Made by a program: the position numbers and the translations under genes. The notes below the pieces were generated by a model. That model saw only the letters and a list, made by a program, of their open reading frames with translations, had not been told where the DNA came from and did no database searches. From Agarophyton chilense (taxonomy: Eukaryota > Rhodophyta > Florideophyceae > Gracilariales > Gracilariaceae), in assembly GCA_030374765.1 (NCBI GenBank), contig JARGXX010000003.1, forward strand, positions 1,116,001-1,180,000: a stretch of 64,000 nt of DNA. Direction: 5' to 3'. Within the stretch, counting starts at the first letter, position 1, and each line of letters opens with the position of its first letter. Below are positions 26,771 to 64,000 of this stretch, in pieces.

Positions 26771-29700
26771 GTTAAAATCGTCATTAGAGACGTTAAAAAG
26801 AGAGCATACGGCTCTGGAGAATCGAAATCTAGACACGAATCGGATAGCCGAGACTGTTCGCACAATCCGAGAAGATCTAAATCAATTTCCAGAAGAGCAA
26901 GGAAATGCCACAGGGGCCTTACCAGCTGTACCGGTTACTGTTGGTGAGGCCTTCTCACGTGTAAACCTTCGCTTAGAGCGATTGGAGACTGTGGTGAATG
27001 CACCGTTGCAAATTCCGCACCCGGAAGTACAGGAGGTGGGACTTATTGTTGCTGATGCGCTGTCGCGCAATAACGATCCGAAGAAGTTGAAGGTACAGAG
27101 GTTATCTTCAAGACGCTCTAAATCGAGAAAAATCGCAAGAAGACATGACACCGATGAAGACGGCGATGATTCCGATTATAAGGATTCCTATAGTTCGGAT
27201 ACGGACGATCCCGAGAATGGAAGTTCATCTTCTGATAGTACCTCGAGCGAGGAGGACGCTCGCCGTTCGAGAAGGAAAAGAATTGGTAGCTCACTACCGT
27301 CCCGCAAGAAGGGACCGCCCTACAATAATCTGAAACCGCTTTCGTGTACGAACCCGCTTTACAGGAAGATTACGAAGTATCGTGTACATCGGACCAAGGT
27401 CTGAAAGAGGAAGCGAACAGGTCACGAGACAGTCAAAGTGAGAGATCACATTAAGCGTTTATAGATTGGTCTCGATGGTTTTACTTTTTCTGGGAAGGAT
27501 CCCATTCTCATATTTGAATTTCAAAATCGCTTTGTAGTCGAAGCCGACACGCTGGGGATGAGTGCAGCTCAAGCATTGTTGGAACTTGCACTCTTATTGG
27601 TTGGATTTTCATTGGAGCAATACCGTGCCGTGAGTGGTTCACTTACCATCGTTGAAGGTGGAGTCACCATTTGGGCCGAAACCATGCAGTACTTTCTGCG
27701 TAGTTACGCAACTTCTAATGCGATTCGTGAAGCTATTCTGAATCTCAGAGATATTACCCAGAAGCCTGGAGAAATGGAGGTTGAGTACAGTTCAAGACTG
27801 AATAATGCAGCTACACGCTGTGGAAATGTCCATTTTACGGACGAGAAGATGACACCTTTTGTCGATGGACTCGATCCGACTATCCAGTCATTGGTAGCCA
27901 GTCGTCGGGAGAACCACTCGAGAATCAGTTTTCTGGAATTATTGTAGTATGCACAGGCTGAAGGTGAAACCGTTCGCGCTCGTCGCGGAGGTAGAACAAG
28001 TCGTCTAAGGACAAACCCAGTTGCTAACAGGGATATAAAACGCCCTATCAAGAGAGGCAAGGTTTTGCATCTGGAGTCGCCAGAGGAATCACGAGTTTCG
28101 ACGTTTATGCCTCATGATGCCAGCTATATTGGAGAAGACGCAGTTAATTATATGGATGATCCAGAGGGGTCAGTGCCTACTACAAATTTTCCGTCAACTG
28201 ATTCCCTTGTGGAAGATGATATATTGACTATGGAGCCACGCCGTTATCCTTACAGAAGGAGTCCGATGATCCCGCCAGCGGTTGGATTTACTTCTCAGAA
28301 GCCTGGTTGGGTGGATAACCGTGGTACAGAACATCCATAGCTGAGGTTGAACAGGGACGGCGTGATACGTTATGGGTGCTATGGAAGACATCATTTGTTA
28401 TCAGAGTGCACTCTGCCCTTTACAAAGGTACATCGAATTGTCTCGAACTATAAAGCTCTCTCGGATCAAGAACGATCCCGTGTACCGGTACAATCATATT
28501 GAAAGTCCAAAGCTTGGGGACTTGCGGATATGGTACGCAGAACTCATGCGAAAGATCAGAACTCTGAAAGATCACAGGGTTCAGCCCCAGAAGTACAGAA
28601 GAACGCCGGTGTGGCGAGGGAGAAACCCGCGTCATCGGGAAATTAAGTGAGGGAGCCCTCAGGGGTTTGAGTGGATTCAAACCCACCATACCGATCGGGG
28701 TACCAACATTTCCCGGCTCCCGGGAATTTAAACCGAAGGTCCTACTGAGACCAGGAAGATCTTCAAATGTCGGAAACTATGTACAGTTTGACTGTATGTT
28801 GAAACATCCTTGCAGACGATATTTGTGCCCAAGTAGGAGGACGGGTCACGTCATGATTATGGCCCGAAGGAAATATAAGGTCTATGCCGACGTCAGCTCT
28901 TCTCAAGCGCTGTTATCGCGAAGACTCGCTTTATTGGATACGGTTGCAGGCCCGAATTTTATCAGGTTGTCTGAATTGCGCGAGGACGAGCGAGTTCGAA
29001 TACAACAGGGACAGATACCGGATATCCGGGATGCGAACAAGACACCGATAAAGTCTATTCGAACAATATGGCCGGTCGTTCGCTTGGGAAATCATGTTGT
29101 AATGTTAACGTTTATTGTTTGTATCACATTGGCTGCATCAGTTGTGCTGAGTTTTGACTACTGTGAAAAGTTTGTCGAATCGATTCGTCCGAAGAATCGG
29201 GAAGTGGAGCTGGACGAGGGCTCTACAGTTCCAATCGTGCGCAGACCTCTGCGGCGATCCGCTTCATTTGCACAATTACCACCGTCATTGGAATAAGAAG
29301 CCCCACTGGGCAGAACAACTCCGAAGATTTGGGTGTGTAAACTAACGGTGATACCACCAAAAAGTCAAACATGGGTATCAGTCGTTACTGAGAAGCACGG
29401 ACTTATCGTTATTCAGCACAACGCGGCACTGTATCACACTAGTGAATCGCTAGTCGCTAACGCCATTGCACAGGTGAGCCCGAAGATCCCTTTCAGGATA
29501 TTGGTGAGCAATGTTGGCTCTGAAGAGCGTCGCTTACACAAGCATCAGCTCTTGGGTATGGCGCTACCACACTTTCAGTTGTGATACCGACACACTTAAT
29601 GACGGCAGACGTCTTAGGAGTAACGCCCAAAGGCGAGCAGAAGTCGAGAGCTACAGAAGCGGTCGAGAACATGAAGAACATGAAGGAAGAGAATGTATAT

Positions 29701-29838
29701 GAAGAAGAGATGGAAGAAGCCCTCGAGGGCGTGAAGATGGAACAGGTTCCAGAGGAGTATAAAGCAAGATTGCGCAGATTGTTGCTGAAGTTCTCACATA
29801 TATGGAGTGGACACAGTTGCCAAATCGCGGCTACAGAA
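26740..29838 (+). mobile_element. Older Ty3/gypsy element, 5' part (gag and protease), split by the younger element
   Basis: Gag begins abruptly inside piggyBac sequence, without a 5' LTR. Coiled gag (27404 stop), a capsid-like part (27558-27947, containing YFLRSYATSNAIREAIL) and a decayed zinc knuckle near 28360 follow, then a protease region (28860-29296, LLDTVAGPNFI in place of a DTG motif) and the leader of reverse transcriptase (29581-29838). Multiple stops and frame changes show long decay. It is collinear with the younger element at protein level but clearly diverged. At 29838 its frame is interrupted by the younger LTR and resumes exactly at 41872 after one target-site copy. Confidence 0.85.
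29834..29838. repeat. Target-site duplication, left copy (CAGAA)
   Basis: These five bases are identical to 41872-41876 on the far side of the younger gypsy element. Removing one copy plus the element restores the older element's reading frame (A-T-E-H-P-I-D). Confidence 0.95.
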
Positions 29839-30760
29839 TGAAGTGCAACCCTCGTGAGGGCCGTTTTCCAGGACTTGGTTGTTTTTCCGCCTCGGGCGAT
29901 ACTTGTGAGATCTATGAGTAATACCGCTACTAGCGGGCTGGCGTAGCCAGGTGTATACGCGCTGTACGCGAAGTGCACCGGCGGCCGTGCGCCGTGGCCC
30001 CGACTCGGGTGTGACCTACCCACGTGTACCACGGGTGGCCCAGGACAGGTTGGCACAGCATAGCTGGATATTTCTCTATTTATTTAGCTTTATTACACTA
30101 GGTTAGGGAGCTCTTTACAGTATTCTACACTATATAGTGTCAGGGCGATCTCGCCCTGACACTCAGTAAACCTCCCCAACCAGGGTTCTTGGCTCTAAGT
30201 CTTTTTCCGCTTTCGCGAGTCTTCCACACTCTACGGAGGTGAAGCCGCGTTACTAACGGTAGACTTATCCACCCTGCGTCAACAGGAGACTCACCGCTGT
30301 TAGCGTGTATATCTTTCATACCACTGCCGTGTTCTCGCCCCAGTATTGGGTTTGCTACATATTTCTTTCGGCTCTCGTGGCCCATGCACCCGATCGCCCC
30401 CACTGGGTGGTCCCCCCTTTATCGCTTACCCACTCTCGTGGTAGTTCCCCCTTTTGCTTTGTGGTTGGGTATTCGTGCCGCTCGCGCGTTTGCCGCGCGC
30501 CGGCTTACCGTGTTTACCGCCACTCCTGTGGGTGCATTACTCGATCTCGAGACTTGCCCACTCCCGTGGAATACAGCTCATACCTGGTCTGCTCCCTTCT
30601 AGCATCCCGCACTCTCCCCGCTTGGCGTGCCGGTGAACCTCGGCCTTACACCCCGACTTAGTCGTGTTCACTCCGGAGAGGCTCCGTCGCCGTGCTACCC
30701 TCCTTGGAGGAAGACTCGGACATCTTCGTGTGTTTCCGCCGCCCTTGGCGTTGCACTACA
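29839..30760 (+). repeat. 5' LTR of younger gypsy element (922 bp)
   Basis: It begins TGAAGTGCAACC and ends GCACTACA, the TG...CA rule. It matches 40950-41871 over its whole length with no gaps. Confidence 0.97.
30128..30160 (+). promoter_or_regulatory. Candidate LTR core promoter: TATA palindrome plus hairpin
   Basis: CACTATATAGTG (30128-30139) is a perfect palindrome containing TATATA. It runs into GTCAGGGCGA / TCGCCCTGAC arms (30139-30160) with a 2-bp centre. Both are kept in the 3' LTR apart from one base. It is the best TATA candidate in the LTR; transcription has not been shown. Confidence 0.5.
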
Positions 30761-30780
30761 AACTGGTCTCCCGACTTAGA
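30761..30780 (+). other. Candidate primer binding site
   Basis: Two bases after the LTR, TGGTCTCCCGAC begins with the TGG expected opposite a tRNA CCA end. I could not match the rest to a specific tRNA. Confidence 0.45.
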
Positions 30781-30921
30781 AGGCTAGGGGGACCTGGTTT
30801 GGTTGTTTTTCACATTGCTGTGCTGTCTTCTCTCGTCGAGATCTGCTTTCCAATTTCTTGGTTTGGACCCACTTGGTGGAAGCTTTTTGTTGTCCTATTC
30901 TTATTGGTCAACGCTACAACC

Positions 30922-33052
30922 ATGTCACGACTCCCGTCGGAAGCGGAACCCGCGATCACGCGGAGCCGTTCCGTCAATGACGTGGTGCCTGCGGACCCTG
31001 GAAGGGTTCCCCCGCCGTTACCTCAAGCCGCTCCGAAAGGCAAGAGTAAGGGGTCGAACTCCTCCAAGAACAACAAGCTACCGCCTAAGGCATCGAAGAA
31101 TGGACCCAATTCTGGTGCTGGACCGGCCCCTGCCGTGGATGACCGGGCTCCTGCCGACGAAAAGGCCCAGAAAAACGAGTTCCACATCGACACCAACTCA
31201 AGTGTGAGGCAGCAGCTCCGCGTAATGCGGGAAGCGCACAATGCCTTCGTGGAAGAGTTCGAAGCCCTGCGTTCCAGGTGTGATGGCTCTTCTATGAAAG
31301 AAGTGGTTGACGACCTCCGCTTGTTGCGGGCGGACCTCAACACCCTGTTGGAATGTTTTGGTGGTCCCGCCGCTTACGTGGAAGGTGTCGAGACCCGATT
31401 CAATCGTGTTAGCGCCCGTCTCCAGACGTTAGAGCAAACCATCTTGATGAAAGACGTCCCGGAGAAGCCGGTGGCTGTGTCGCACCAAGCGAAACACGAG
31501 AGGAAAAGGGACGATACCCGCCGTCGGCGTGGAAAGCGTGACAGCGATGACTCGGACTCGTCGAACTCCTCACGGTCGTCGCGTGGCTCTCACCATTCAA
31601 ATGGGTCGGACTCGTCAGATTCGTCTTCTGTCGATGGCCATCGCAGGCGTTCATCCCGTTCTAAACGGTCGTCTGCCACCCAATGTGTGATCCGCGCCCG
31701 CGAGAAGGGAAGGAAACACTCCGGGTTGAAGGAGCTGAAATGCACCAATTCCCTGTACTAGAAGTTGGTTTCTTACCGATACTATCGGCTAGAGAACTCC
31801 TCTTTGGATCGCACGCCCCGTGGCACGGGTAGAGTGAAGGATTGCATAAAGCGAATGCAACTGTCCCTCAGGAACCAGAACTTTTCTGGAGAAGACCCCA
31901 TTTTGGTGTTGGATTTCCTTGCGAGGTTCGTCGCCGAAGCGGATATTCTCGGTATGACCGAAGGACAGGCGTTTATTGCACTCCCGTACTTTATGAAAAG
32001 GCCTCGCCGAGGATCAATACAACTCTGTAAGAGGTTCGTCTAGAGCCTCCGAAGGAGGGGTAACCTGCTGGCCAGAAGCAGTACAATACCTCTTGAGGTC
32101 CTACGCCACTAATCACGCGATTCAGTCGGCCATTCTCGCTCTTCGCGATACGCGCCAGAAGTCTGGAGAAACGGAAACCGAATTCTCGGTGCGCCTGAAC
32201 AAGGCTTTCCACCGTAGTGGGAACGTACAATCGGCCGGAGAGCGCTGCACCATGTTCATCGATGGACTGGACCCCGCCATCCGAACACTCATGGCCCGTT
32301 ACCGGGAAGACCGAAGAAAGACCACGTATCTGGAGTTGGTCCAACACGCGCAAGCGGAAGGTGACGCTTTAAGAGCTCGTGCCCCCGGACACAGGTCGCA
32401 AACCGCCAAGGCGTTGGTGATGGAAACGAAGTCGCCATCCCTATCGCTGGTTGCGATTGAGCGCCCCCAACAGGAGTACGACAACGTACACTTCGCCCGA
32501 AGCGATATCCATTCGGTCCCGACAACCGAACTACCGTCTACGATGGACGACTCATATGACACGGCCCAGGATGGACCCCTGCTGTACGCAGACTCTCCCC
32601 GTGTTCACGGACCTCGCATCCCGTATTCAAACGGTGCGCTCCGACAGAGTCGCCCTGGATGGAAGGATACCCGCCAAGCGGTGAAGTTCACGGATGCTCG
32701 CTCCGGTTTGCAGCCCTCACGCCCGGGACTCATATGCCACATATGCTACGAACACGGTCACATTTCACCGGACTGTATCTTCACCATGAGGGAAGTAGCC
32801 CGAGTAATCGGTAATTGTGAGGCGTTGACTCCAGTGGAAAAGCGGATTGTTCTGATGACGTCGTATCTTCGAGCGAAGATCGATTTTCCATGGAGTATTC
32901 CGGAGGCGAAACCGCGCAATGCATTGCTTTACCCTGCCGAGCAGGCTCCCGACCACCGCCCCGTTCCTTCAAACCCCGCCGCTGGCGCCCCATTGCTAGT
33001 AGTTCACGATTCTGAGGCCCCGCCCCAAGCGGATGGGACTCAGGAAAACTGA
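30922..33052 (+). pseudogene. gag: Gag of younger gypsy element
   Basis: It starts at the ATG at 30922 (MSRLPSEAEPAIT). An N-terminal Pro/Lys-rich disordered part leads to a coiled region, a Ser/Asp/Arg-rich tract, and a capsid-like domain (TMFIDGLDPAIRTLMARY). A CCHC zinc knuckle CHICYEHGHISPDC lies near 32738. Two lesions break it: a TAG at 31759 (the older copy has AGG there) and one extra A at 31996-31999, after which the frame moves by one and stays open to the TGA at 33050. The structural protein would package element RNA in cytoplasmic particles. Confidence 0.85.
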
Positions 33053-36000
33053 TTTCGGGAGTCTCCCCTTCGGGAGAGGCGTCCCCAACAGTGAGGTTGA
33101 CGACGTCCGAGGCGTCTCCGCCTCGCTCCCCGGTCACAATCCTCACGAGGAAACAGGCCGTCTCAGACGTGGACTCTGAACACTTTGGTGTTCTACGTCG
33201 ACCGTGGAAAGGTGTTCTTAACCGCCGGTTCCCGGATAGAGTCTTAGTAATGGCCATGCGCAATTACAAGGTGTATGCCGACCTTGGCCTTTCTACCCAG
33301 TTTATGGTTCGAGTCCTTACTGTTTTGGACAAAGGTTCTGGTCCGAATTTCATCGTGGAGTCGCTGCTGCCCCCGCCCTTGCGATCTCAGCTCCGCCTTG
33401 GCGTGGCGCCCGACGTCGCGGACGCGAATAACAACCCGTTGTCAACGGTTGGAACCGTCGCTCTCGTCGTTCGCTTGGGCTCCTTCGTGGTGAAACTCGA
33501 CTTTATTGTATGCCGGAAATTGGCTGCCCCCATCATCTTGGGAGGTGACTTCTGTGACAGTTTCGTTGATGCCATAAGGCCCCGCTTAAAGCGTGTTGAG
33601 ATGGAAGACGGCTCGTCGGTCCCGATTGTCCGTCGTCCGCTGCGGCGTGCCTCCAAGAAGCACGTACCGCTCCCTGCCGCGCCGGAACCTCCACCCGCTT
33701 CTCGGGAGTCTACCAAGCTCTGCGTGGCTGCGTCTGTCCGAATCCCGCCAGAGTCCCAAGTATGGGTGCGTGTCACTTCCCGTCAACACGGTTTACGAGT
33801 CATTCAGCCTCTCTCATCTCTGTACGGTGGATATCAACTCGCCGTGGCGAGTTGAGTCGCGCAGATTGTCCCAGACAAGCCGTTCACCGTGCTCGTTGCC
33901 AATCTGGGCTCCACCCCCCAGTCACTGGTGAAAAACCAAGTTATTGGATCGGTAATGCCTCACCCCACCGCGATGGTCCCCACTTGGCTGACCGCTACCG
34001 AAGTCTTCGGTCTCGTTCACTCTAAGGAGGGGGAGGAAGCTGCCGTCCAATCACCGAATGATTCGGAATCGCAACCTGCCGAAACAGAAAAGAAGCCCGT
34101 TCCGACGAGTTACGACAGGGTAGACCCCGTGAAAGAACTCGAGGAACTCGACCTCGGTCATGTACCGGAGTCACACCGTGAAAGTCTGCGTGAGATGTTA
34201 CGGGAGTTTACCACAATGTGGGATGGCTCTCTTGGTGAGATAAATACAACGGAACACCGGATAGATTTATTGCCGAACACCCGACCGGTGGCTCAACACC
34301 CTTACAGGGCAGACCCCAAGGCTCGAGAAGAGGAACAGTTCCAAGTGGACAAAATGCTCCGAGCTGGAGTGATCGAACCGGCTCAGTCGCCGTGGGCATC
34401 CCCAGTGGTACTGGCTCCGAAACCCGATGGGTCCTGGCGCTTTTGCATCGACTACCGTCGCTTGAATGATGTTACCGTCAAGGACGTGTATCCGATCCCA
34501 CGAATGGATGAGTACATCGACTCTCTCGGCACTGCTACCGTTTTCACGGCTTTGGACGCCAATTGGGGATATTGGCAGGTTCCCGTTAGGGAGGAGGACC
34601 AAGATAAGACTGCGTTTGTCTGTCACTCGGGACTCTACCGTTTCAAACGGATGCCTTTTGGTCTAACCAATGCTCCCGCTACCTTTCAGCGTGCTATCGA
34701 CATTTTGTTGGCCTGCTTTAAGTGGCGTACTTGCCTCGTCTATTTGGACGATATCATTGTATTCTCAGACAATCTGGATGACCATCTCACCCATGTCAGG
34801 GACATAATGACCACGCTACGTGATGCTGGAATAACCCTCAAACTGAGGAAATGTGAGTTCTTTACCGATACTGTGAAGTATCTCGGGCACATTATCCGTC
34901 CTGGACATTTAATGATCGAGGAAGCTCGAGTGAGGTCCCTTCGCAAGGCGAAAGAACCCGCTACCCAGACAGAACTGCGCTCCTTTCTAGGATTGGTCAA
35001 CGTCTACCGACGGTTTATCCCTAACTTCGCTGACATCGCGGCCCCCTTGCACGCGCTTCTGCGGAAAGGTCAACCACCTAAACTGGACCCCTTTACGTCC
35101 GCCCAGACGGATGCTTTTAACTCCCTTAGGGAGGCTGTCACATCAGCACCGATTCTATCGTTACCGAAACCCGGACTACCGTTTTCCGTGGACACGGACT
35201 CTAGCGACTACCAGGTAGGCTGTGCGCTCTTTCAAACTACTCCCGAAGGAGAATGCAAACCCATTGGGTACTGGTCATGCTCGCTCAATGTCCACGAGCG
35301 GAACTACTCCGTGTCGGAGAAGGAGTGCCTCGCAGTTGCGTGGGCCATCTCTACACTCCGCCCCTATCTCATGGGTGTGCACTTTACCGTTTACACGGAT
35401 CACTCGTCCCTACGATGGCTCATGAACATCTCGGAGCCGTCAGGCCGCTTAATGCGTTGGAGACTCCGCCTCGCGGAATATGACTTTGAAGTGATCTATA
35501 AGAAGGGCACTCAGAACGCGCAAGCGGACGCGCTCTCGCGTTTACCCACGAATGGGGAAGCTCTAGCCGTCGATGACGAGGATATACCTTGCTTCGTCGT
35601 AGACGATAGAACACCGGGGGACCCGGATTGGTTACACGATAAATGAAACGAAAGCCCGGAATCGGATGATGACATTAACGCATTGCTCGTCTCGGACGAT
35701 TCAGAGAAAACCCCGCCGGGTGATTTTGTGCCGATACCCCCGGAGGAGATGGTCAGAGAACAGCAGGATGACCCCTTCTGTACGAAGATTCGCGCCTGGC
35801 TTAATGGCGGTGCACAACTCCCTTTCGAGGTGAACGATCTTGGATACCTCGTCAGGACGGTTCAGTCATCCCCACAAGTCGTGGTGCCGCATACACTACA
35901 GTCTAGAGTTTTGCATCTATCGCACTATGCGACACTTGGTGGACACGCCGGTGGACGGAAGCTCTACCTCGCTTTGCGAAGGAGTTTCTACTGGCCCGCC

Positions 36001-38795
36001 ATGGCGGTGGATTGCTACGCAACGGCGCGGTTTTGTACCGAATGTGCTAAGAATCGGGTGAAACTTCGCAAGTACTCAACGAAGTTGAAACTATTCCCGG
36101 CACGGGCTCCTTTCGAGTTTGTCGCCATTGACATCCTCGGTAAGCTCCTCACCACACGACGTGGACATAAGTTTTTACTCGTTATCACGGATCGTTTCTC
36201 CAAACTGGTTCGGACCGTACCTCTACGGAAGATATCCGCTTTCACGGTTGCACAAGCATTTGTAACCCATTGGGTATTCGTCTACGGCCCGCCGGTTAAT
36301 CTTCTATCCGATAACGGAAAACAGTTCGCATCGCGATTCTTCGAGGACGTGTGCAGGATTCTTGACATCAAGAACCTGTTCACAACGACCTATCACCCCC
36401 AGTGTAATGGGCAAGTGGAGCGGTTTAACCGAACGCTATTAGCGTCTCTCCGTTCTTACGGGGCCGACCACCCAAAGACATGGGATTTATATACCGACGC
36501 CTTGACGTTCGCGTACAATACGCAGGTACACCGTACTACGGGCTTGACTCCATTCGAACTGGTCTTGTCCCGCCCTCCGCCCGCTGTCGCGTTAGAACCC
36601 CAGCCCACGCTGGATGCGTTCCCTTCCGTGAAGGATTATCGCCACAGGTGGAAAGAGTGGCTTACGAAGCTGATCCCGGTCGCCCGAAGCTCGATGGCTC
36701 GTGCCTAAGCCGCTTACAAGCGTGATTTCGACTCTCGCGTACGCGGTAAGGCCCCGCCAATCAAAGCCGGTGACTTCGTCTTCGTCCGTAAGGAGTACTG
36801 GAACCCTGAAAAAAAAAAGAAGCACAAGCTTTCTTCCGTCGCGGACGGTCCTTACAAGGTCATTTCGGTGAAAGACGACACCATGGTGGTGGAAATTGTC
36901 GACGCTCATGAGCGGATCTCCCGCGACCGCGTTGTACTCGCCCCGCCACCGACGTTGGAAGTAACCGAAATGGGTCAACAATCCCTCTCTGAGGATGATG
37001 GTGCTCGGCACACAACAGTGGCTCAGCCCACTGCCGTGGTTTCCAGACCTTCTGCGTTACCACACCCTACCCAAGGACTCTCTGACTTGCCGATCTTATC
37101 GGACCAAGGCCAGAATGGCTTCTCTTCTCTCACGCCATGGCGCGGTGTCTACCCCCGCCCGTTGGGCGTTTCAACCACTCCCCATGCCGCTCCGTCTCAG
37201 GAGGGGGAGGAGGCTCATAACTCTCGTCGAGAGACGGAAACCGCTTCGTCGCGTCATGAAAACCGTGGTGCACGGCCTCCTGGACACACCAGCAAGAACA
37301 ACGGTGATCCGGACGTCCCGTCTACCGACGTGCCATCTCCGCATTTGCGCGCTACAACCGTTGCTGAACCCTCTATGAGAAGCGCCACCGCATCTGCGTC
37401 TGATCGCACTCCCCACGGGGACTCTACTCGACAGGACGCACCACGTAGTGGAAACCCTCTTGCCGAAGCGAAACCGAAATCGTCGCAGGATGCTGTTCGC
37501 CCTCGCGATACTGGACCGGCTATGCCGTCGAGCGTTGACCCGCAGCCCATGGGTCACGGTTCGTCAACACCAGCTACGCTGGAAAACTTAGAGCACGCCC
37601 TCGCAGGCCCCTCTAGGCCAAATCGATCGGAAGTGGTCCCTCGTACTGTACGGCAGGACACACCGGCTAAGCCGGGCAAGCACACCGTAGCAGACGGGAG
37701 ATTCACACCCAGCACGCTTGATGCTGGTTCAGAACCCGCGCGCAGTGGCGGACGCACTCCGAGTGTCTCGGTTGACCCGGACAGCGTTGTCGAAGGCGCA
37801 CCGGTCACCCCGGAGAATGTGCCCGTCAAGGACGGAAGCACCTCGTCGCCGAGTGAAGTTGAACCCTCGAAAGGGATAGTTGAGGACGAACTCGCTCCCC
37901 GCAGGGGTTCCTCGCCGCGCACTTCGCCGCCCGTTGGTTAGGAAGGCACGGTTGACCCGGAGTCGCACGCCCGTCGCGGTACTTTGTCGCCCAAGCGAGC
38001 AGACATGCCGGCAGCGCCGTTGCACATGCCCTCACGTGAGGAGGCGGAACGCAGCACGGCGCGCAGTACTCCCAGCCATCAGCCGGATGTGTCACGTGAC
38101 CAGACGACACCCGGCTCGGGCGTTACGCCAATGAACGCCCAAGGCGGCTCACCCGGCAAGGCACGACGCCCTGTGATGAAACCGCCTCTCGCGTCAAGTC
38201 CAGCACCGTCGCGACGGATTTCACCCCGACGACTTGCGGAACGCGACCGCGAAACCCAGCCTTGGGATGATTCCGCGTTCCCCCGAAGGGTGGCCTCTGC
38301 ACGAGAACTCTCGGAAAGCATTCCGACCCAAAAACTGGGAGAGTTGCCCCACGGGAAGGCATCCGGCCGAAACCGTCGAACTGACGCTCTTCGTCATGAC
38401 GCCTTGGCGGAAGCAACCCGCCAAGCGGCCAAGGCAACCCGAAACCCGGTTCGATCCTCTACCCAGGGCATGGAAAGGCAACGCCAACCCATGGACCCCT
38501 CGGGGGAAGGGCATAGTAGCCCACACGCACCTGCGGACGTACACCGGTTTGGTCCGGTGACGCGTACACCGCAAGGGCGGGAAGTCTACGAGAAGGAGTT
38601 CGTGGTCGACCGCATGGTGGAGCACTCATACCATCCGGATGGTTATATTCAATACCTTGTCCGTTGGTACGGTTAAGGGCCCGAATGGGATTCGGATGAG
38701 CCGATGGAACAACTCTTACGTTTGAAGGTGGTGTCATATCACCTCAGAACGCGGACGGGAATCCCGGCATCGGTTTTTAAAGCCCAGGTGGGATA
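33016..38795 (+). pseudogene. pol: Pol of younger gypsy element: protease, RT, RNase H, integrase, linker, chromodomain
   Basis: It lies in the -1 frame relative to the end of gag and overlaps it by 37 bp. Protease: LDKGSGPNFI at 33325, where Lys replaces Thr of DTG. Reverse transcriptase: catalytic YLDD at 34741-34752. RNase H: SVDTDSSDYQ, KECLAV, YTDHSS and QADALSR are all present. Integrase: HHCC finger (SHYATLGGHAGG ... CTECAKN), D-D-E at VAIDILG, LLSDNGKQF and NGQVERFN, then the GPYKVIS motif. A disordered linker of about 550 residues leads to a chromodomain at 38592-38715 (EFVVDRMVEH ... YLVRWYG). Stops at 33853, 35644, 36706, 37939 and 38674 keep the frame. The last replaces a chromodomain Tyr. 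Confidence 0.9.
33043..33077 (+). promoter_or_regulatory. Candidate -1 frameshift signal at the gag-pol junction
   Basis: Gag ends with GGAAAAC followed by TGA (33043-33052). Twelve bases later a 6-bp stem TCTCCC / GGGAGA with loop CTTC lies at 33062-33077. Pol is open in the -1 frame from 33016. The heptamer is not a canonical X-XXY-YYZ site, so the mechanism is only suggested. Confidence 0.4.
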
Positions 38796-38976
38796 ACACC
38801 CACCTCGGTGGAAGAGAAAAGAGAAGTAGATTTGCTTGAGAACAGGCTAGTGAAGGAAGGTTTTGGGTTACACAAGTCACTTGGTTTTTATTCGAAGCTA
38901 TCGATGGAATACCGAGCACTCGGGATACTACTCTAAGTCACAAGGGAAAACTCCCCATCGGGGATCGCGTGCCCCG

Positions 38977-40914
38977 TCACGGGTTCGACTCACCGCCCCC
39001 GGGTTGGTTACCTCCCTGGAGGCGGGTGATCAAGGCCTCGCGCATCGTGGCAACATCGCCACTCGCTGCGTTGGTCCCCAGCCCCACCTGTCGCAGGAAC
39101 TGGGAGATCACGGCCGCTTGACCCGCCGGAGCGGAGCTCGCATCGCCTGGGGCGGACGCCCCACCACTTGGGAGATTCACCGGTGGAACCGGAGGTGGTC
39201 CAGCTACCGCGTACTGCAACCCAGCCCCCGCGGGGTTATCCAAATCCACGCAAGGCGGGGCTGGCGTCCCCGCGTTATAGGGACCTTCCGCTTCGGATCC
39301 CTCGACCTCCGCCTCGGCGTGCGCTTCCCCGTCGTCGGGTTCGTTGTCCATAATTGGATCGTCGCCGTCGTAGACGTGGTAATATCCATCCGCGTCCACG
39401 AAACCGATCGGATGCCCCTCGGGGATATGGCGTGGTGCAAACCGGAGTTCGTTCGCTTCCTCCGCGGAGATTTCGTGCCCTTCCCAAGGGTCAAAGTATA
39501 CGAAATCACCTCCCAAGGGAGTACGCCTTCCTGGTGACAGGTCCTGACCCCGGCTACCCACGGTGCGCCCGCTTTGTTCAATCGGAACGGTGGTCCAGTC
39601 CAACTGGTCGATGTAATCGAGAAGACCCGCCACTTCTTCGGCGTTGGTTACTCCACCAAGTGGGATGCTCAGGTCCAGGCTGCGAATCGCGGACCTCAAC
39701 CGGAACGGGAGGAACCACAGTCTGTACTGGTCATACACCTCCCAGAGGATGAACACCGCCGCGCCGACTGCCCATTCGGTAATCACCACGGACCACAGTC
39801 CGGACTCGGGATCCTCGATGAGGTACGAACCGTAATACGTGATGACTGGTGGCAGCTCGATGTAACAGCCCCGGCAGGCCTCGAGGTTCGACCACCACGG
39901 TGGAATGAGGACATAGCGACCCCGTCGGTCGGCCACGCGAAGGCGTTCGATCTCCAAGTTCTGATACGGGACCAAATACCCGAATCGGGATCGTGCTCGA
40001 CGCTCGAAGCGGATCAGGGCGAGGAAGTTGGCCCGCGCAAGTCGACGCATGTAGCGGAATTCTTCCCGGATACTCGGTCGCGTCCAGCACATGGCCTCTT
40101 GCCGTGCTATCGGGATGCCCCTCCACGAGAGTGTTTCCAAACCCGGCAGGCGGTCGACGTAACCAATCTCACCTTGAGTGCGGTAAAGCCAAATGTCGGT
40201 GCCGAGACCATCGGGGATGGGATATTCGAAAGGAGCTCGGCGAAGCCGTTGATGGCCAAGAAGGACGAAGGCCGCATAAGCGGAAGCCGAGGTTTCACTA
40301 CCCCGGCGCGCCAAAGCGTGGACCGGAACCGCTACGCGGCGTCGCCAATCCAACGAAGTTGTCGCCACGGCCGGAATATCGCCCGGAAGCATCCCGTTTC
40401 CATCGGTGTACATCGCTATGAGCGCTTCTTTTAACACCGCAATCGGGTGGAACCACGGCGAAAGCCGGAGAACGGACGCATGATGCCCCGGATGGCGCCC
40501 GACAAGCATGTCGTATGGCGGCCACCTTCTCGGGGGGAACATTCCGTACGGAGCAGCAGCCGCGTTCGCGATAGGAATCTGCGGCGCAGCCGATGACCCG
40601 CTTTGCGGAAGCGGACCGGACCGGAAGCCGGAGAAGTACCCCGCAGGGAGACGGTTGGGTTGATTGTTTTGGTTGCTCATCGGTGAGCGAATAGGCCGGA
40701 TGACCGGAAGAGGAGACCGGCGAAGCGAAAGACGATGCCGAGGAATCGGAGGACTGGCACGCAAGGATGCGGATTCGGTTGAGATGGAACGTTGAGAACG
40801 GTTGTTGCCAGGAGACTGGAGTTTTGCCGCACTGCGTTTGTTGGCATCGGATGTAGTGGATCCCAGCGAGCTGGTTGCACTCTTATGCATTCGTCTCGGC
40901 GCGTCGCCCACCAT
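38977..40914 (-). CDS. Antisense accessory ORF of the gypsy element, intact, unknown function
   Basis: This intact ORF of 645 codons lies opposite to gag-pol, convergent with pol and starting 35 bp from the 3' LTR. Two starts are possible: an ATG at 40914 or at 40680 (MSNQNNQPNRLP, 567 residues); the second fits the relative at 57.3-59.0 kb, which starts MSKHLAYVVN. I recognise no domain. The N-terminal 130 residues are disordered, then comes a Trp/Arg/Tyr-rich central region: IWLYRTQGEIGYVDRL, RSRFGYLVPYQNLEIERLR, ACRGCYIELPP, a possible membrane or buried helix at VVITEWAVGAAVFILWEVY, and TPLGGDFVYFDPWEGHEIS. The tail is acidic then Gly/Ala/Pro-rich. Two diverged relatives elsewhere keep these blocks in the same reading frame, which supports real coding. 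Transcription would need an antisense promoter in the 3' LTR. Confidence 0.8.
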   Translation of the reverse strand: MVGDAPRRMHKSATSSLGSTTSDANKRSAAKLQSPGNNRSQRSISTESASLRASPPIPRHRLSLRRSPLPVIRPIRSPMSNQNNQPNRLPAGYFSGFRSGPLPQSGSSAAPQIPIANAAAAPYGMFPPRRWPPYDMLVGRHPGHHASVLRLSPWFHPIAVLKEALIAMYTDGNGMLPGDIPAVATTSLDWRRRVAVPVHALARRGSETSASAYAAFVLLGHQRLRRAPFEYPIPDGLGTDIWLYRTQGEIGYVDRLPGLETLSWRGIPIARQEAMCWTRPSIREEFRYMRRLARANFLALIRFERRARSRFGYLVPYQNLEIERLRVADRRGRYVLIPPWWSNLEACRGCYIELPPVITYYGSYLIEDPESGLWSVVITEWAVGAAVFILWEVYDQYRLWFLPFRLRSAIRSLDLSIPLGGVTNAEEVAGLLDYIDQLDWTTVPIEQSGRTVGSRGQDLSPGRRTPLGGDFVYFDPWEGHEISAEEANELRFAPRHIPEGHPIGFVDADGYYHVYDGDDPIMDNEPDDGEAHAEAEVEGSEAEGPYNAGTPAPPCVDLDNPAGAGLQYAVAGPPPVPPVNLPSGGASAPGDASSAPAGQAAVISQFLRQVGLGTNAASGDVATMREALITRLQGGNQPGGGESNP

Positions 40915-40938
40915 CGCGAATGTCGTACTCGCGCCTCA

Positions 40939-40949
40939 GGAGGGGGATA
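40939..40949 (+). other. Polypurine tract of younger gypsy element
   Basis: GGAGGGGGATA directly precedes the 3' LTR. The last ten bases across the boundary, GGGGGATATG, recur at 59149-59158 in another element. Confidence 0.85.
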
Positions 40950-41871
40950 TGAAATGTAACCCTCGTGAGGGCCGTTTTCCAGGACTTGGTTGTTTTTCCG
41001 CCTCGGGCGATACTTGTGAGATCTATGAGTAATACCGCTACTAGCAGGCTGGCGTAGCCAGGTGTATACGCGTTGTTCGCGAAGTGCACCGGCGGCCGTG
41101 CGCCGTGGCCCCGATTCGGGTGTGACTTACCCACGTGTACCACGGGTGGCCCAGGACAGGTTGGCACAGCATAGCTGGATATTTCTTTATTTATTTAGCT
41201 TTAATACACTAGGTTAGGGAGCTCTTTACAGTATTCTACACTATATAGTGCCAGGGCGATCTCGCCCTGACACTCAGTAAACCTCCCCAACCAGGGTTCT
41301 TGGCTCTAAGTCTTTTTCCGCTTTCGCGAGTCTTCCACACTCTACGAAGGTGAAGCCGCGTTACTATAGGTAGAGTTATCCACCCTGCGTCAACAGGAGA
41401 CTCACCGCTGTTAGCGTGTATATCTTTCATACCACTGCCGTGTTCTCGCCCCAGTATTGGGTTTGCTACATATTTCTTTTGGCTCTCGTGGCCCATGCCC
41501 CCGATCGCCCCCACTGGGTGGTCCCCCCTTTATCGCTTACCCACTCTCGTGGTAGCTCCCCCTTTTGCTTTGTGGTTGGTTATTCGTGCCGCTCACGCGT
41601 GTGCCGCACGCCGGCTTACCGTGTTTACCGCCACTCCTGTGGGTGCATTACTCGATCTCGAGACTTGCCCACTCCCGTGGAATACAGCTCATACCTGGTC
41701 TGCTCCCTTCTAGCATCCCGCACTCTCCCCGCTTGGCGTGCCGGTGAACCTCGGCTTTACACCCCGACTTAGTCTTGTTCACTCCGGAGAGGCTCCGTCG
41801 CCGTGCTACCCTCTTTGGAGGAAGACTCGGACATCTACGTGTGTTTCCGCCGCCCTTGGCGTTGCACTACA
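40950..41871 (+). repeat. 3' LTR of younger gypsy element (922 bp)
   Basis: It begins TGAAATGTAACC and ends GCACTACA. It has the same length as the 5' LTR with about 25 substitutions and no indels by eye. Confidence 0.97.
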
Positions 41872-44520
41872 CAGAACATCCTATTGACGTTGTACCGGGT
41901 GCACGACCCATCGCTCAATTACCGTATCGGGCAGGCCCGCGAACTCGTCAGATCGAGCAAGACATCGTGGACTCCATGTGGGAGAAGGGAATCATTGAGC
42001 CAGATCAATCAGCTTGAGCATCCCTGGTGGTCCTTGCTCTCAAAAGGAGATAGTTCTTTACGTTTTTGCGTTGACTACAGAAAACTGAATGCAGTAACTG
42101 TGAGGGCTACGTACCCACTACCGCGTATGGATGAATGCATCGATAGTCTTGGAGAAGCCAATGTTTTTTCTACGCTTGACGAAAATTGGGGATACTGGCA
42201 GATACCAGTCGCCCCAGATGACCAAGATAAAACTACATTTGCGTGTCACGTAGGACTGTATCGCTTTAAGCAAATGCAATTTGGTTTCACCAATGCCCCT
42301 GCGACTTTTCAGCGTGCTATCGATATAGTGTTATCACAGTATAAGTGGAAAACATGTCTTGTTTACTTGGATCAAATCATCATTTTCAGTAAAAATATGG
42401 CAGACCATTTCGGGAATGTTGAGGGAATCCTCGAGAAGTTACAGCAACCTGGAACTACCTTGAACATCAAGAGGTTTGAATGGTACACGGACCAAGTGAA
42501 ATGCCTGGGACACAGGATAAAGCCAAGGAAACTGGAAATGGAAGAAGTGCAGGCCGCTGCGATTCGTGAGGCCAAACCTCCGCGAACGCAGACGCAATTG
42601 AAATCTTTTCTCGGACTTTGTAACGTCTACAGACGATTTGTGCCGCGCTATTCGCATACCGCTGCACCCCTTCATGCTTTATTGAAGAAGTGACAACCCT
42701 TTCAATTGAAGGAATTCGGAGAAGCCGAAACAGAAGCTATCGCAAAGCTAAAACACGTGCTGACCACAGCTCCTGTGTTATATCTTCCGAAAACGAATCT
42801 TCCTTACTCCATCGATACGGACGCTAGCGATTATCAGATAGGGTGTGCCCTTTTTCAAACGCACGAATACGGCATACGATATCCCATTGGATACTGTTCG
42901 ACAACACTGCACCACGCAGAAAAGAACTACTCTCTGTCAGAAAAGAAATAACTTGCCATGGTTCGGGATCTCACGATCCTCAGACCTTACCTATAGGGGG
43001 CTCACTTTTCGGTCAATACCGATCATTCATGCCTCAGATGGCTCATTTCCACTACCGACCCGTCGTAACGCTTAATGCGATGGCGTCTGCGCATTTCAGA
43101 TTTTGATTTCACAATCAACTACAAGAAGGGAACTTCAAACGTACACACTGAAGCGTTATCGCGACTCGAAACCTTAAGAGAAACCGAACTGGAAATCGAT
43201 GATGAGATACCATGTTTGGTAACGGAAAATTTGAGAACAAAAGATGAAGATCTAGAAGATCTAGAAGAAGAAAATTATCAAATGGAATTACTGGTAGCTC
43301 AGACTTCGGATACTGATCCATATGATCAACTCGAACGCATTTCTCTTGAAGAGATATTATATGAACAAGTCACAGATGCCTTCTGTGCGGCTATTCGCTA
43401 TCGTCTTAACGGGGGGAAGGTGTTGTCTTTTCCTCTCGACGATCGAGGAATCTTTTTTCTAACTGTTGAATCGTATGAGAAAATCGTGATGCCACACGCT
43501 CTCAAAAGCAGAGTACTGCATTTTGCACATTATTCGCAAATGTCTGGTCATCCAGGAGGTATGAATCTGTATCTAACCCTCAGAAGGGACTTTTATTGAC
43601 CAACCTTGGCAATGGATTGTCATGTGACAGCTAAGATGTGCGTAACGTGCGCCAGGAATAGAGTGAAGCTCTGGAAAAAGAAGAAGCCACTGAAGCTGTT
43701 CCCAGCAATCGCACCTCTACAGTATGTGAGTATTGGCATACTCGGGGAATGATCCACTCGAAGCGGGGAAACAGATACTTTTTTGGTAATAACTGATCGC
43801 TTCCCTGAGCTGGTTAAGACTGTTCCGCTGAAACGGATTACTGCTTCCATGATAGCACTAGCGTTCATCCACCATTGGGTTTATTACTACGGACCACCGG
43901 ATACTCTGCTCTCAGATAATGGCAATCAATTCGTTGCACGCTTCTTTCAAGATGTATGCAGGATACTTGGAGTTAAGAACATGTTCACCACGACGTATCA
44001 TCCGCAATGTAACGGGCAGGTGGAACGGTACAACCGTACAATACTCGCCGCAATTCGGCACTACATCGGAGAACACCCGAAGGACTGGGATCTGTACACA
44101 GGCACGCTTTGCTACGCATAAAATACGCAAGTGCATTCGACGACGAAGCTAACACCCTTTGAATTGGTAATACCTCGCCGACCAGCGGCTTTGCCAATCA
44201 ATGTAGATTCGGACAGAACCGAAGAAGAGACAATGCTGACGCCGGCTCAGTTTCACCTATGCTGGAGGAATGAGTTGCACAAACGCACTACACAGACTGC
44301 AAAAGAGATGGGAGAGGCCCAAGCGCGCTACAAGCGTAATAACGACGCGTCAATGCGACGGGCACTCCCGGATATCCTAGTCGGAGGACACATTTTCGTG
44401 AGAGTGGAAAGCAAAGATAGCCGGAAGATCGGAAAAGACAAGGAACGAAAACGCTGTCATATGTTAGCGCCGATCGCTACAGGACCGCATGAAGTTGTCG
44501 AATTCGACAAACCGGAGACG
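41872..44520 (+). mobile_element. pol: Older Ty3/gypsy element, 3' part (RT, RNase H, integrase)
   Basis: This continues the pol frame interrupted at 29838, after the CAGAA duplicate at 41872-41876. RT is recognisable from CVDYRKLNAVTV to FLGLCNVYRRFVP, but the catalytic YLDD reads YLDQ (42364-42375). RNase H (SIDTDASDYQ) and integrase (HHCC region near 43540-43660, LLSDNGNQF, NGQVERYN) follow with stops at 42691, 42949, 43597, 43750 and 44119. A GPHEVV motif near 44480 marks the end of integrase; homology to the younger element stops near 44510. No chromodomain, antisense ORF or 3' LTR follows, so the 3' end is deleted. Confidence 0.85.
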
Positions 44521-49157: not shown

Positions 49158-49255
49158 TGACAGACCGTACAAGTTGCCTCCAGACCAAGGAATAGATAGT
49201 CCACCAGACGCCGACTTCAACCCAAGTAAAGTGAGAAATCTTGTGCACTCCGTCA
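49158..49255 (+). repeat. 5' LTR of copia element (98 bp)
   Basis: It begins TGACAGACCGTAC and ends CACTCCGTCA, and matches 53445-53542 with few differences. Confidence 0.93.
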
Positions 49256-49267
49256 GGTTATGGGCCC
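49256..49267 (+). other. Primer binding site complementary to the anticodon region of initiator tRNA-Met
   Basis: GGTTATGGGCCC lies directly after the LTR. Its complement GGGCCCATAACC is the anticodon stem-loop sequence of eukaryotic initiator tRNA-Met, containing the CAT anticodon. Drosophila copia is known to prime from an internal fragment of this tRNA. Confidence 0.75.
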
Positions 49268-49424
49268 TCACTCACAAATCGATCCCACATCCGCACGATC
49301 CCGCCTACTCCGCCGCCGCCAAGAGCAAGCACCATTCGTCGACATAACAGCGGACCTCCTAAGACTCGTGTACAAAGAACAAAAGTATACCTTACAAGGA
49401 GATAACACCACACACCATCACACC

Positions 49425-51152
49425 ATGGCGAACGACTCCAAATCCGAAATCCCACAACTCGAAAAAGCAAACTACGGACCTTGGCTCGTAGCGCTACGCG
49501 CCTACGCACGACGCAACGAGTGCCTAGATCATCTCACAAGCAACTTACCCAAACCACAGGCAGCTGCTGAACTCAAATCATTCAACAACAAGGAAGACCT
49601 GCTCGTCGGAAAAATACTATCCACGACTCCAACAGATATCCTAAACCTACTGATAACACCAGAAAGCGATCCATCACCACACGATCTCCTGCAGTACATA
49701 ACGAACCATTTTAACACGGCAAACCAAAACAACCACAAATACCTCAAACAAGAAGCGGAAGACACCATCTTCGAAACTGGGATGGACATTACGGAGTATC
49801 TCGAGAAGCATCTAGATATCAGAGCTCGTATGGTAGCCGCCAGATACCCGGGAATATCAGACCAAAGCCTCACAGTCTCTTTCATGATCGAGGGACTAAA
49901 ACACAATCCAGACACCGCACACATCGGCATCACCTTCTTCTCAACAAAACCCAGCACCCCACAAGAATTCGCCAGCCAATTCAAAATGATACACAAATAT
50001 GTACACACAGCATCCCTCACTTTCGGAATCTCTGCCCACGGCCTTACCGGAGACCACACACGTACTACTACCCAACGCCAACGGACTCATACCACCCCGC
50101 GGTACAGAGAGCGCCACGCGAACCCGTGCCAGCACCACATCGCCCTCGGCGTGCGCTCTCCACGCCATACAGACACTGAATGCCGAGACCCCAACCACCC
50201 GCGTCACAGAAACGAACGCGCACCAGCCCGCGGCCGGCGCCCACAACCGCGCGCTCGGGCTCTATATGTCGTAAACAACGACAACGAAAACCCCCTGCAA
50301 GAATTGCAATACGCCTCAGAGGACTCTGACAGCCATGGTAAGCTAATTTTGTATTCCGGAGCACACCCAACATATGTCCCAAGCCCTTCCGCATTACTAC
50401 ATCCCACACGCCAAACACTGCATACGAAAACAGCAACTAACCAGTCCGTGCCCTGTACGCACGCCGGCCAGAGCGCGATCCTCACCAGCAAGGGTAAAAA
50501 CCTCACACTACCCGCCGTGTGCACACCTCGAGTCCCCGACACCCTTCTGTCTGCCCACGACATCGCATTGCGGTCAGGCGCAGTAACCTTCGACCCCGTT
50601 AGAGCCTCCATCATTCAACTAAAGAAAGATAGGCTCCCAAAAGTTATTGGCGTCGCCCCATGGAACCCTAAACACAACGCCTACATCCTCTCGCGATCAC
50701 GAAAAACAGCAGTAGCCCGCACAAGCCGCACAATACCAATCTCGAAACGCTCTGCTCCCCCCAAAAAGCAAACGCATCTGCACACGAATCCAACCGCCAA
50801 CGACCAACCCCACCCACGAACAAAACTTTCCACCAAGAACATCCACAGCCACCACGGCCCATCCTCCTACCGATCAGCGAGGCGTGAACCACTAATCCAC
50901 AAACACTCCCCACCACCAGACCCGATCCACCGACCATCGCCATCCCAACTTATATACCACGACTGGCAGCTTCGGTTAAACCACGCGCCGACGCGAGCCA
51001 TAAAAGTTATGGCAAACAGGAAAATACTCCCTGGAAACCTCCGCAACCACCCGGCGCCCCTAGCCTGCGCATCCTGCGCATACGGCAAACAAACACCACG
51101 CCCACATCACCTCACCTCACACCACTATGCCCTTGGCTACTACTTCAGCTAG
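49425..51152 (+). pseudogene. gag-pol: Copia gag, protease and start of integrase
   Basis: It starts at the ATG at 49425 (MANDSKSEIPQLEK); the frame is open from an ATG at 49260 within the primer site. Gag carries the UBN2-like pattern LEKANYGPWLVALRAY and NHFNTANQ. The protease site reads LILYSGAHPTYV (near 50343), where the catalytic Asp of D-S-G is Tyr. The integrase N-terminal zinc region has HDWQLRLNH near 50965 and CASCAYGKQ near 51065. The frame ends at a stop at 51150 just before the DTCGP catalytic segment, which continues in the same frame. Confidence 0.85.
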
Positions 51153-52376: not shown

Positions 52377-52424
52377 CTCTATGGCACACCACCAGCTGCT
52401 TTCATCTACGCCAATGCCCTTCGA

Positions 52425-53319: not shown

Positions 53320-53400
53320 ACCGCGTGGCACACCACAACCATCTGAAGCGACTGCACATGACCACGTCCGCCCCCCCATCAGCGCATCAGCACCGGGGAC

Positions 53401-53542
53401 TGACAGACCGTACAAGACCTCATGCTGCTGCGCCCAGCCAACACTGACAGACCGTACACGTTGCCTCCAGACCAAGAAATAGATAGTCCACCAGACGCCG
53501 ACGTCGACCCAAGTAAAGTGAGACATCTTGTGCACTCCGTCA
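53401..53542 (+). repeat. 3' LTR of copia element with a partial tandem duplication of its start
   Basis: 53445-53542 matches the 98-bp 5' LTR. A further copy of its first 16 bases lies at 53401-53416, followed by 28 unrelated bases. Either the 3' LTR gained 44 bp or this is a remnant of strand-transfer slippage. Confidence 0.8.
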
Positions 53543-57327: not shown

Positions 57328-58980
57328 TTAGGGATTCGGGTTATCCGAGTTAATACCCATCGAGGAGCGCAAGAGATTCAGCATCTGCTGTCGATTTCCT
57401 TGAACAAGGTGGGGAGGAATCTCAGCGTCTTCGAGAAACTGCCTCAGATTGCCAAGCTCGGCATCTTGGGAAGCCACTGCGGGTCGAACAGGCTCAGGCA
57501 CAGTGCTCTGCATCGCTACAGGGACCACTGGCTCCATGCAGTTGTCCTCACCCAAAGCGGGATTCTCGAGGATGATCTCTTCTGACTCTTCGTCGTAATT
57601 GATTTTTTGAATCTCTTCGACGAGTGCGTCTGCATTTTGAGCAGTTGGCTCGTGTATGTAACCATTCGGCTCGGTTGGAGGCATTGCTCGTGGAGTTCCA
57701 CGCAGAACTTTCGCGTGATCGCCTTCGATATGCTGGCTAGTCCAGGGGTCGTACCAGACAAAGTCACCGCCGGGACCGGTTCTGCCGCGTGAATAGTCGC
57801 GACGAGGACCTCCTCAAGCCTGCTGCTCAGAAGGAACAAGGGTCCAGTCAATCTGGTCAAGGGCATTCATCAGGCGCAAAAAATCTTCGTGATTGGCACG
57901 TGAGCCCAGGAAGAGCGACAGATCGAGTTCTCTCGCAAGTTGTGGAGCATTCGGGCTCATATACCACAAACAATATGTGTCGTACACATCCCAAAGGATG
58001 AACACGGCCATCCTCGCGATGAATTCACTGTAAACGACTACCCAATAACCGGAAAACGGATCATTCGCGAGTAATGAACCTAAGTAGGTGATTGAAGGAG
58101 GGGGCTCCACAGGACAGGCACGAGGACTCTAGACCTCACGCTAGTGTTGAGGAATCGGCACGTAGCGCCCGACGCGCGAGTTAGACCGAATACGGTCAAT
58201 TTCGAGCATCTGGTACGGAACTATGTATCCCAGTCGAGATCTGGTACGGCGTTACCACCTGGGGAATTCCCAATATGCGTAATCCCGTTTGTGGCGATAG
58301 CGTGATTCCGCACATAATTGAGGATTGTCGGAACAGAGGGCCACGTTTGATACTCCACGAACACCGCGCCACCTTTGGACATCCAAAGCCTCGAGGTTCT
58401 CGACATAGGAGTAGGCCTCGCCATTTGTTCTGGCACACCAGGTATCGAATTACCAATCCTTGTTGAGAGGCACCGAGTCGATAATGCGGCGTAGTCGCTA
58501 GTACACCAGACGGGTGAATCGTTGGGTCGCCTCGAGCAAGCTCTCGCTTCTGAAGCGACTGATCGCATTGTTTGGAAGGGCGCAATGGCTCAATCAATCT
58601 GTTTTAAACAACGAATGCCATGTGATACAATCGGGAAGGCGTCCGGCGACCACAGAATGATTCATCATAGCTTCATCGTGGACCGCAGCAGGGAAAAGCC
58701 AAGGCTCTCGCGCGTATAAAGCAGAGTGCTGCAGGGGTTTTCGGCCGACTAAGTCCGCGTAATAAGGGAACACATGGGTGGAGGATGAAGCAGGTTGCAG
58801 AACAGCTGCTGTCGAGGAAATGTATGGCGGGCCAGGATTGGAAGCCGATCGCGGCAAAAGGGCAGTTCTGGAGATTGGAGAGGAACCTCTACGCGTTGCA
58901 GAAGTCTGCTGAATCGGAGGGTTGTAGAGATCTTCATAGAACGTAGGTGGATTGACCACGTAAGCCAGATGCTTACTCAT
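57328..58980 (-). pseudogene. Second copy of the antisense accessory ORF, decayed
   Basis: It reads leftward from an ATG at 58980 (MSKHLAYVVNPPTFYED). Alignable blocks with the intact copy, in order: FPYYADLVGRKPLQHSALY, RSRLGYIVPYQMLEIDRIR, VVVYSEFIARMAVFILWDVYD (shown to its 20th residue VVVYSEFIARMAVFILWDVY), ALDQIDWTLVPSEQQA, GPGGDFVWYDPW, and a C-terminus ending NSDNPNP against ESNP. At least six stops interrupt it. It lies convergent with a chromodomain remnant and its start is about 175 bp from a polypurine tract, so element layout is conserved. Similarity to the intact copy is moderate, so the two families parted long ago. Confidence 0.8.
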
Positions 58981-62879: not shown

Positions 62880-64000
62880 CAATGTCCGTAAGCAACGTAC
62901 GCGAACGGTTCCCGTTCACGCAATCCTGCGGCGAAGGCGCGAGTCGGCGGAGGAGGCGCATTGTGTATTCGTCCGCATCGGCTACTCACGGATCAACCGG
63001 GCAAACTTTCAATAACCCATCCCCGACGAATTCGGCTTCGACCTACGGATATACCGGACTCAGGATGAGATCGGCTATTGTGACCGACTTGCGGCGTTGG
63101 AAACTTACGCATGGCGCGGTCAACCGCGAGTGCGTCAAGAAGCGATCTGCTGGGTCCGTCCGATCATTCGTGCCGAGTTCCGTCACCTTCGTCGTGAGTC
63201 CCGATATCGGTGGTTACAGAACTTCATCCGCGAGGAGCGTCGGGGCAGATCCCGCTTTGGGTTCTTTGTTCCTTATCAGAACACGGAGATAAACCGGATT
63301 AGTTCCTTCTATCAGTTCGGGCGATACGTTCCCCTGCTTGGGTGGTGGTCCTCCGTCGAGGTGTGCCGGGGATGTTACGCGGAGTTGCCTCCAGGATCCG
63401 CACTCCGGCTTATGGTCCGTGGTCCTAACCGAATGGGCAGTCCGCGCCGCGGCGTACGTCTTGTGAGAAGCCTACAACCAGTATCGACTGTGGTATCTTC
63501 CTCCGCGTTTGCGTGGTTACATCCGGCAGCTGGACCTTCAACTCCCTCTTGGAGGTGTCAGTAACACTGATGAAGCTCAGGAGCTCATCGACATCATTGG
63601 GCGTGTCGACTGGGCTGTCGTACCTGTCCGGCAGAGCGGCCGTGTTCAAGAAGCTGGTGGGGCTGATCGGTCTCCTGGGCGTCGCACGCCGTTGGCGGGA
63701 GATTTCATCTTCTTTAACCCATGGGAGCAGCAAGAGATCTCCGAGGCGGAGGCGTCGGCACTCCGGATGGCTCCGCGAGGCATAACATACGGGCACCCCG
63801 TGGGGTTTGTCAACTCGGATGACATCTACTACGCCTATGGCAGTGATGATCTCCCGGAGGAGGAGGACGAATACCGTGGCGAAGAGGTCATGGAAGACGT
63901 GGGAGACCCCGATGGGGCCGATATTACGGCGCAGTCGGCGCAGGGAGCGACTCACGCAGGTGCAGTGGTCGATCCAGTGGCGGCGGCGTTGCCAAACGAA
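62880..64000 (+). pseudogene. Third copy of the antisense accessory ORF, cut by the right edge
   Basis: The frame aligns with the intact copy from its residue about 195 onward: TVPVHAILRRRRESAEEAH, a TAA at a Tyr position, PIPDEFGFDLRIYRTQDEIG, FRHLRRESRYR, GRSRFGFFVPYQNTEINRI, EVCRGCYAELPP, then a deletion of about 11 residues, SGLWSVVLTEWAVRAAAYVL, a TGA at a Trp position, EAYNQYRLWYLP, QLPLGGVSNTDEAQ, TPLAGDFIFFNPWEQQEIS and an acidic tail open to the window end. GC content is higher than the surroundings. It belongs to an element oriented leftward; its pol should lie beyond the right edge. Confidence 0.8.

Follow-up and report, generated by a model that had tools for sequence, protein, structure and literature searches.

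The locus raises the question of why a retrotransposon should carry a long open reading frame (ORF) on the strand opposite to pol, beside its 3' LTR, and whether this frame is a gene at all. Antisense ORFs in LTR elements have been described from land plants and retroviruses. We analysed a 64,000-nt stretch of DNA (the window; coordinates are counted from its position 1) and found that the antisense ORF is real and coding. Our main reading, to which we give a probability of about 0.5, is that a group of chromodomain Ty3/gypsy elements of red algae has in it a conserved accessory gene, whose product would by analogy be a trans-acting regulator of the element, translated from an mRNA that arises in the 3' LTR.

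The insertion and its antisense reading frame

The features are given below; A to D are families of the antisense protein, A being that of the window.

29839..30760, + strand: 5' LTR, 922 bp, TG...CA, with the target-site duplication CAGAA at 29834-29838
30664..33052, + strand: gag region in two pieces of different frames (ORF pieces 30664-31761 and 32093-33052)
33889..35646, + strand: pol piece with reverse transcriptase (RT) and RNase H (Pfam RVT_1 1.3e-37, RT_RNaseH 3.6e-36)
35683..36708, + strand: pol piece with integrase (Pfam Integrase_H2C2 3.7e-12, rve 7.1e-11)
38599..38673, + strand: first part of the chromodomain, truncated by an in-frame stop (14.2 bits, below the cut-off)
38977..40914, - strand: antisense ORF, 645 codons, or 567 codons from an alternative ATG at 40680
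38980..39111, - strand: C-terminal tail of its product (44 residues), for which two helices are predicted; a similar tail is seen in proteins P0003, P0004 and P0005 and in family B
39403..40557, - strand: conserved, mostly helical core of 385 residues (residues 120-504; AlphaFold pLDDT 86.9, pTM 0.87)
40938..40949, + strand: purine tract adjoining the 3' LTR, read from the sequence and lying within the leader of the antisense ORF; we take it to be the polypurine tract
40950..41871, + strand: 3' LTR, 922 bp, with the duplication CAGAA at 41872-41876; putative location of the antisense promoter
57655..58869, - strand: second, decayed copy of the antisense-protein gene, family C, with seven stops
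62905..63979, + strand: third copy, in two frames near the window end; its identity is 50-56% with the window's protein and 55-59% with P0005

The element (29839-41871) is a complete insertion of 12,033 bp, seen whole in the window, with the same 5-bp target-site duplication on both sides. Its LTR pair has a K2P distance of 0.0277, in agreement with the divergence of about 2.7 percent given in the earlier note. Its domain order, RT-RNase H, integrase and chromodomain, is that of a Ty3/gypsy element with a chromodomain. The chromodomain (PF00385) scores below the cut-off in the window and in copy L041, and its earlier recognition is borne out by sister copy L003, where it is above the cut-off (28.3 bits vs 25.1). 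The available text of PMC12477816 describes chromodomain gypsy elements outside the chromoviruses in a brown alga. The window's pol is, by arithmetic, one frame with five stops, in pieces 33091-33855, 33889-35646, 35683-36708, 36868-37941 and 37984-38676, and the second gag piece has zinc-knuckle matches below the Pfam cut-off. The five pol stops and the gag in two frames fit the earlier statement that gag and pol are broken by six stops, although the exact figure of six was not recounted. In some other copies (for example on contigs C71 and C6), RT lies in open frames of 1926 codons and its match is free of stops.

Coordinates and strand bear out the intact antisense ORF of 645 or 567 codons that had been placed between pol and the 3' LTR, the position that defines the class aORF-3R. 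The distance from its first ATG to the first base of the 3' LTR (40950) is 35 bp, the spacing that the earlier note had given for the ORF. An upstream ATG is found besides the downstream one in families A, B and D and in P0005 and P0010, and no ATG precedes the downstream one in the family C copies L012 and L027, the alignment being loose there. We think that the 567-codon form is the common product and that the longer form is possible. Families A and D (L001, L041 and sister copies) have a palindrome, CCCTC-N1-2-GAGGG, close to the inner edge of the LTR; it precedes the projected start of the antisense ORF by 57-86 nt and is not present in the B and C copies that we looked at.

The window also holds other elements. 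Gag-like (27696-28511) and pol-like (41974-44199) pieces of another gypsy element, both on the + strand, flank the insertion. Since such pieces are found on both sides, an older, related element seems to have been the insertion site of the window's element, and the copy at 57655-58869 may be the decayed antisense ORF of that older element. At 49158-53542 there is an element that by eye looks Copia-type, with ORFs at 49260-51152, 51381-52376 and 52276-53319, bounded by 98-bp repeats (49158-49255 and 53445-53542) that are 95% identical.

Copies, orientation and coding

We searched the assembly (79.8 Mb, 135 contigs) for copies of the antisense-protein gene. There are at least five families in the genome, with well over 200 scored copies; the counts are lower bounds because only the best candidates were scored. 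Families A to D are 32-51% identical pairwise. Family A has at least 77 scored matches at 90-100% identity, out of 1992 candidates, and 30 of the 77 are stop-free by hand count. The P0004 query gave at least 67 matches; the 30 with DNA comprise 25 of family B, three of C, one of A and one of D, and at least four of the 67 are family A copies. Family D has at least 91 matches. With P0005 of Gracilariopsis chorda as query, we obtained at least 71 main matches, 57-71% identical to it, and in addition shorter matches within these copies. This Gracilariopsis-like group may be the youngest family, since 52 of its 71 main matches are without a stop (hand count). Beside two family B copies there are fragments (L023:3-386 and L026:3-296) that are 61% and 54% identical to A and perhaps belong to other families, and short tandem repeats, 86-89% identical, lie just beyond the ORF end in another family B copy (L039:4252-4480).

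Protein-database searches, in each of which the best 8,000 or so candidates were scored, gave at least nine relatives at 34-56% identity. The two named ones are from Gracilariaceae algae, P0005 from Gracilariopsis chorda (Florideophyceae) and P0010 from Agarophyton chilense. The gene occurs in many copies and, judged from these proteins, in more than one species. P0007 has its best identity with family D (52%), and the identity between P0005 and A is 49%; thus, going by sequence, at least two families look to predate the split between these algae or to have moved between them. Phycobilisome-linker genes (PF00427) are also present in the assembly, with 13 matches, of which seven lie on contig C39 and the other six on as many further contigs. 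Together with the two named relatives, they indicate that the host is probably a red alga near Gracilariaceae and not a land plant.

The antisense arrangement is general. We compared 235 ORF entries (A, P0004 and D queries) with the best 75-77 RT matches listed for each of three RT queries, and 119 entries had a listed RT within 8 kb. In 116 of these, RT is on the opposite strand, past the 3' end of the ORF. The other three have RT on the same strand and on the other side, and are probably pairs of neighbouring elements. Five loci are common to two lists (hand check); counted as distinct copies, 111 of 114 are antisense to RT. Little can be read from the 116 unpaired entries, as each RT list has only 75-77 places. 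The DNA of B (L039, L040) and D (L041) has the same arrangement.

Intactness of a single copy is weak evidence, as the earlier note had said, and we agree. The open run of the antisense frame, 652 codons, was reached in none of 500 dinucleotide shuffles of positions 38977-40948, in which the longest run over all frames had a median of 197 and a maximum of 479 codons. Constraint is seen between families, where pN is below pS throughout and third-position mismatches are in excess. Of the six frames compared in seven family pairs, that of the ORF has the best identity and 0-2 stops; each of the other five has 7-35, which rules out a plus-strand frame as the conserved one, the outcome that had been named as a refutation. 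The dN/dS values are 0.19-0.22 for B vs C and 0.32-0.41 for A vs B, C and D (D vs B and C gave no value); they are rough, because dS between families is near saturation (pS 0.67-0.76). For RT between families, pN is 0.19-0.30 with pS saturated, and for the antisense protein pN is 0.29-0.51, indicating that the latter evolves faster.

Within family A, the ratio of nonsynonymous to synonymous private variants against expectation is 0.93 for the ORF frame (29 rows, 587 variants; 12 stops, 20.5 expected). A value near 1 had been proposed as grounds for rejection. It was indeed obtained, but it does not refute coding, because RT of the same family gives 1.26 (19 rows, 357 variants; 15 stops, 16.4 expected). 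Inserted copies decay nearly neutrally, as RT does. Variants present in at least two copies give 0.79 for the ORF frame (115 variants) and 0.66 for RT (43), and those in at least three give 0.74 (36) and 0.30 (14). One plus-strand frame gives 0.63 in the last class; the within-family data therefore do not decide, as they fail to single out the ORF frame. Most of the family A rows were picked among the highest scores, a choice that favours intact copies; the duplicate of the window row, two RT rows with less than 90% coverage, and the L041 and L022 pieces of RT are excluded.

The protein and its possible role

The earlier note had recognised no domain and knew of no description of the family. 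We found no convincing Pfam, NCBIfam or PHROGs family and no PDB sequence match, and no description of the family was found in the literature. The structure prediction that had been suggested gave a confident, mostly helical core, and this AlphaFold model matches no entry of the PDB or viral fold libraries, so that the predicted shape is apparently new. The N-terminus of the product is predicted to be disordered and is followed by a core of about 370-385 residues, mostly helical; a short helical tail closes the chain, preceded in A, D and P0003 by a disordered acidic linker. The alignment has 30 invariant columns over 12 rows, several of which are copies of one family. The charge of the N-terminus is +17 in A, +4 in B, -1 in D and -19 in P0003; it is strongly basic in A only, and a common nuclear-localisation signal is thus unsupported.

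In family D the open frame starts about 15 bp, and its first ATG lies about 81 bp, from the apparent LTR edge beside a purine tract (judged by eye, no LTR pair being seen for D). Given this and the 35 bp in A, any transcript that has a leader has to start within the LTR or farther out. Most likely, the antisense mRNA would start inside the 3' LTR, read back over the polypurine tract and end facing pol. Its product would be soluble (we infer both solubility and location) and, by analogy, could act in trans on the element, either on LTR transcription or on escape from silencing.

The alternative that competes best with a regulator is a cofactor of replication or of the particle, a partner of Gag, integrase or element RNA, which we consider credible but rather unlikely. 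Such a partner would be in keeping with the presence of the protein in each family examined and with its divergence, which is about as fast as that of gag (32-39% identity, against 35-37% for the gag piece between A and B). By percent identity, not by a tree, the protein and RT also agree in pairing B with C and A with D, on the assumption that the interrupted pol (41974-44199) is that of the family C element. However, antisense coding uncouples the protein from Gag-Pol translation, which is unusual in a structural partner.

An enzyme of new fold, for example a nucleic-acid or chromatin modifier, is improbable. The core is large and compact in the model, its residues D121, R126 and E130 are listed as invariant over 18 aligned rows, and the available part of PMC12477816 reports algal DNA transposons with opposite-strand accessory genes encoding a ParB-like domain and a DNA methyltransferase. 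On the other hand, the protein has no known catalytic motif and no family or fold match in the libraries searched, and the invariant residues may be structural. We regard an envelope-like or movement protein as still more improbable, even though the stretch from pol to the 3' LTR is where env-like ORFs sit. In A, the highest Kyte-Doolittle mean over 19 residues (1.79) is just above 1.6, the usual cut-off for a membrane helix, but by the same hydropathy measure this segment is lower in B (1.22), D (0.93) and P0003 (1.48); the antisense orientation and the lack of a match in the viral fold library also argue against it.

It is very improbable that the relevant antisense product is the RNA, with the ORF being incidental: according to the available text of PMC7264820, other LTR elements have antisense transcripts that can feed silencing, but the protein-level constraint between families (pN below pS, the stop-poor ORF frame) and the invariant columns speak for a protein. 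A chance ORF, favoured by the 61% GC of the region, or a by-product of a conserved plus-strand frame, of which one is 33-50% identical between families, we regard as refuted by the shuffles and by the stop counts in alternative frames (27-35 per pair in that plus-strand frame), and relatives in other species also stand against it.

Comparison with known systems

Retand/Grande elements of land plants are known to have an antisense additional ORF in the interval from pol to the 3' LTR, and we class the red-algal ORF as a new case of this kind that is apparently unrelated to theirs. The analogy with plant gypsy elements drawn in the earlier note was right, since the position is that of the land-plant aORF-3R, which the available texts of PMC7264820 and PMC11963269 record in Retand, Grande (gene23), RIRE2 and PvRetro13. 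As far as these texts go, plant antisense ORFs in this place are transcribed, one product is nuclear, and Grande gene23 is transcribed from a promoter upstream of it; a regulatory role has been proposed, with no function established. The cases are alike, as far as the plant elements are described there, in being antisense to gag-pol, in the same place, in many copies and in several species. Retand, however, is described as a non-chromovirus plant lineage in which most clusters encode TRP28 (PF04195), whereas the red-algal element has a chromodomain and no sequence relation was found. TRP28 is absent among the Pfam matches of eight sequences at E up to 10 (weak matches being filtered, and the model assumed to be in the Pfam copy used).

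HTLV-1 and HTLV-2 encode the antisense proteins HBZ and APH-2, and the HTLV antisense promoter lies inside the 3' LTR (available texts of PMC7264820 and PMC11963269). The likeness is that of an accessory protein coded antisense, with a 3' LTR promoter that is seen in HTLV and would be expected here. Host, element class and protein differ, and neither bZIP nor any other Pfam match was found for our protein, so that this is an analogy only. The algal DNA transposons, as far as PMC12477816 is available, likewise have an accessory gene on the strand opposite to the transposase, but with ParB-like and DNA methyltransferase domains, neither of which was seen here. The ORF3s of bdelloid-rotifer LTR elements resemble our case as non-envelope extra ORFs common to several families; those in the available text of PMC5408684 are of DEDDy and GDSL types, and no such domain was found in the red-algal protein.

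With such a case described, annotators could recognise such genes, of which at least one (P0005) is now filed as a host hypothetical protein, and the compact, well-predicted protein is ready for structural work on what they do. The findings suggest that these red-algal elements use a helper protein made from the reversed reading of their own DNA. Tentatively, red-algal gypsy elements may have independently evolved an antisense trans-acting regulator with a new fold and a 3' LTR promoter that controls or unsilences the element, a possible further independent origin after the HTLV-type retroviruses and the plant Retand-type elements. In the red-algal case the protein is under between-family selection, and the case suggests that coding backwards beside the 3' LTR is a recurrent solution.
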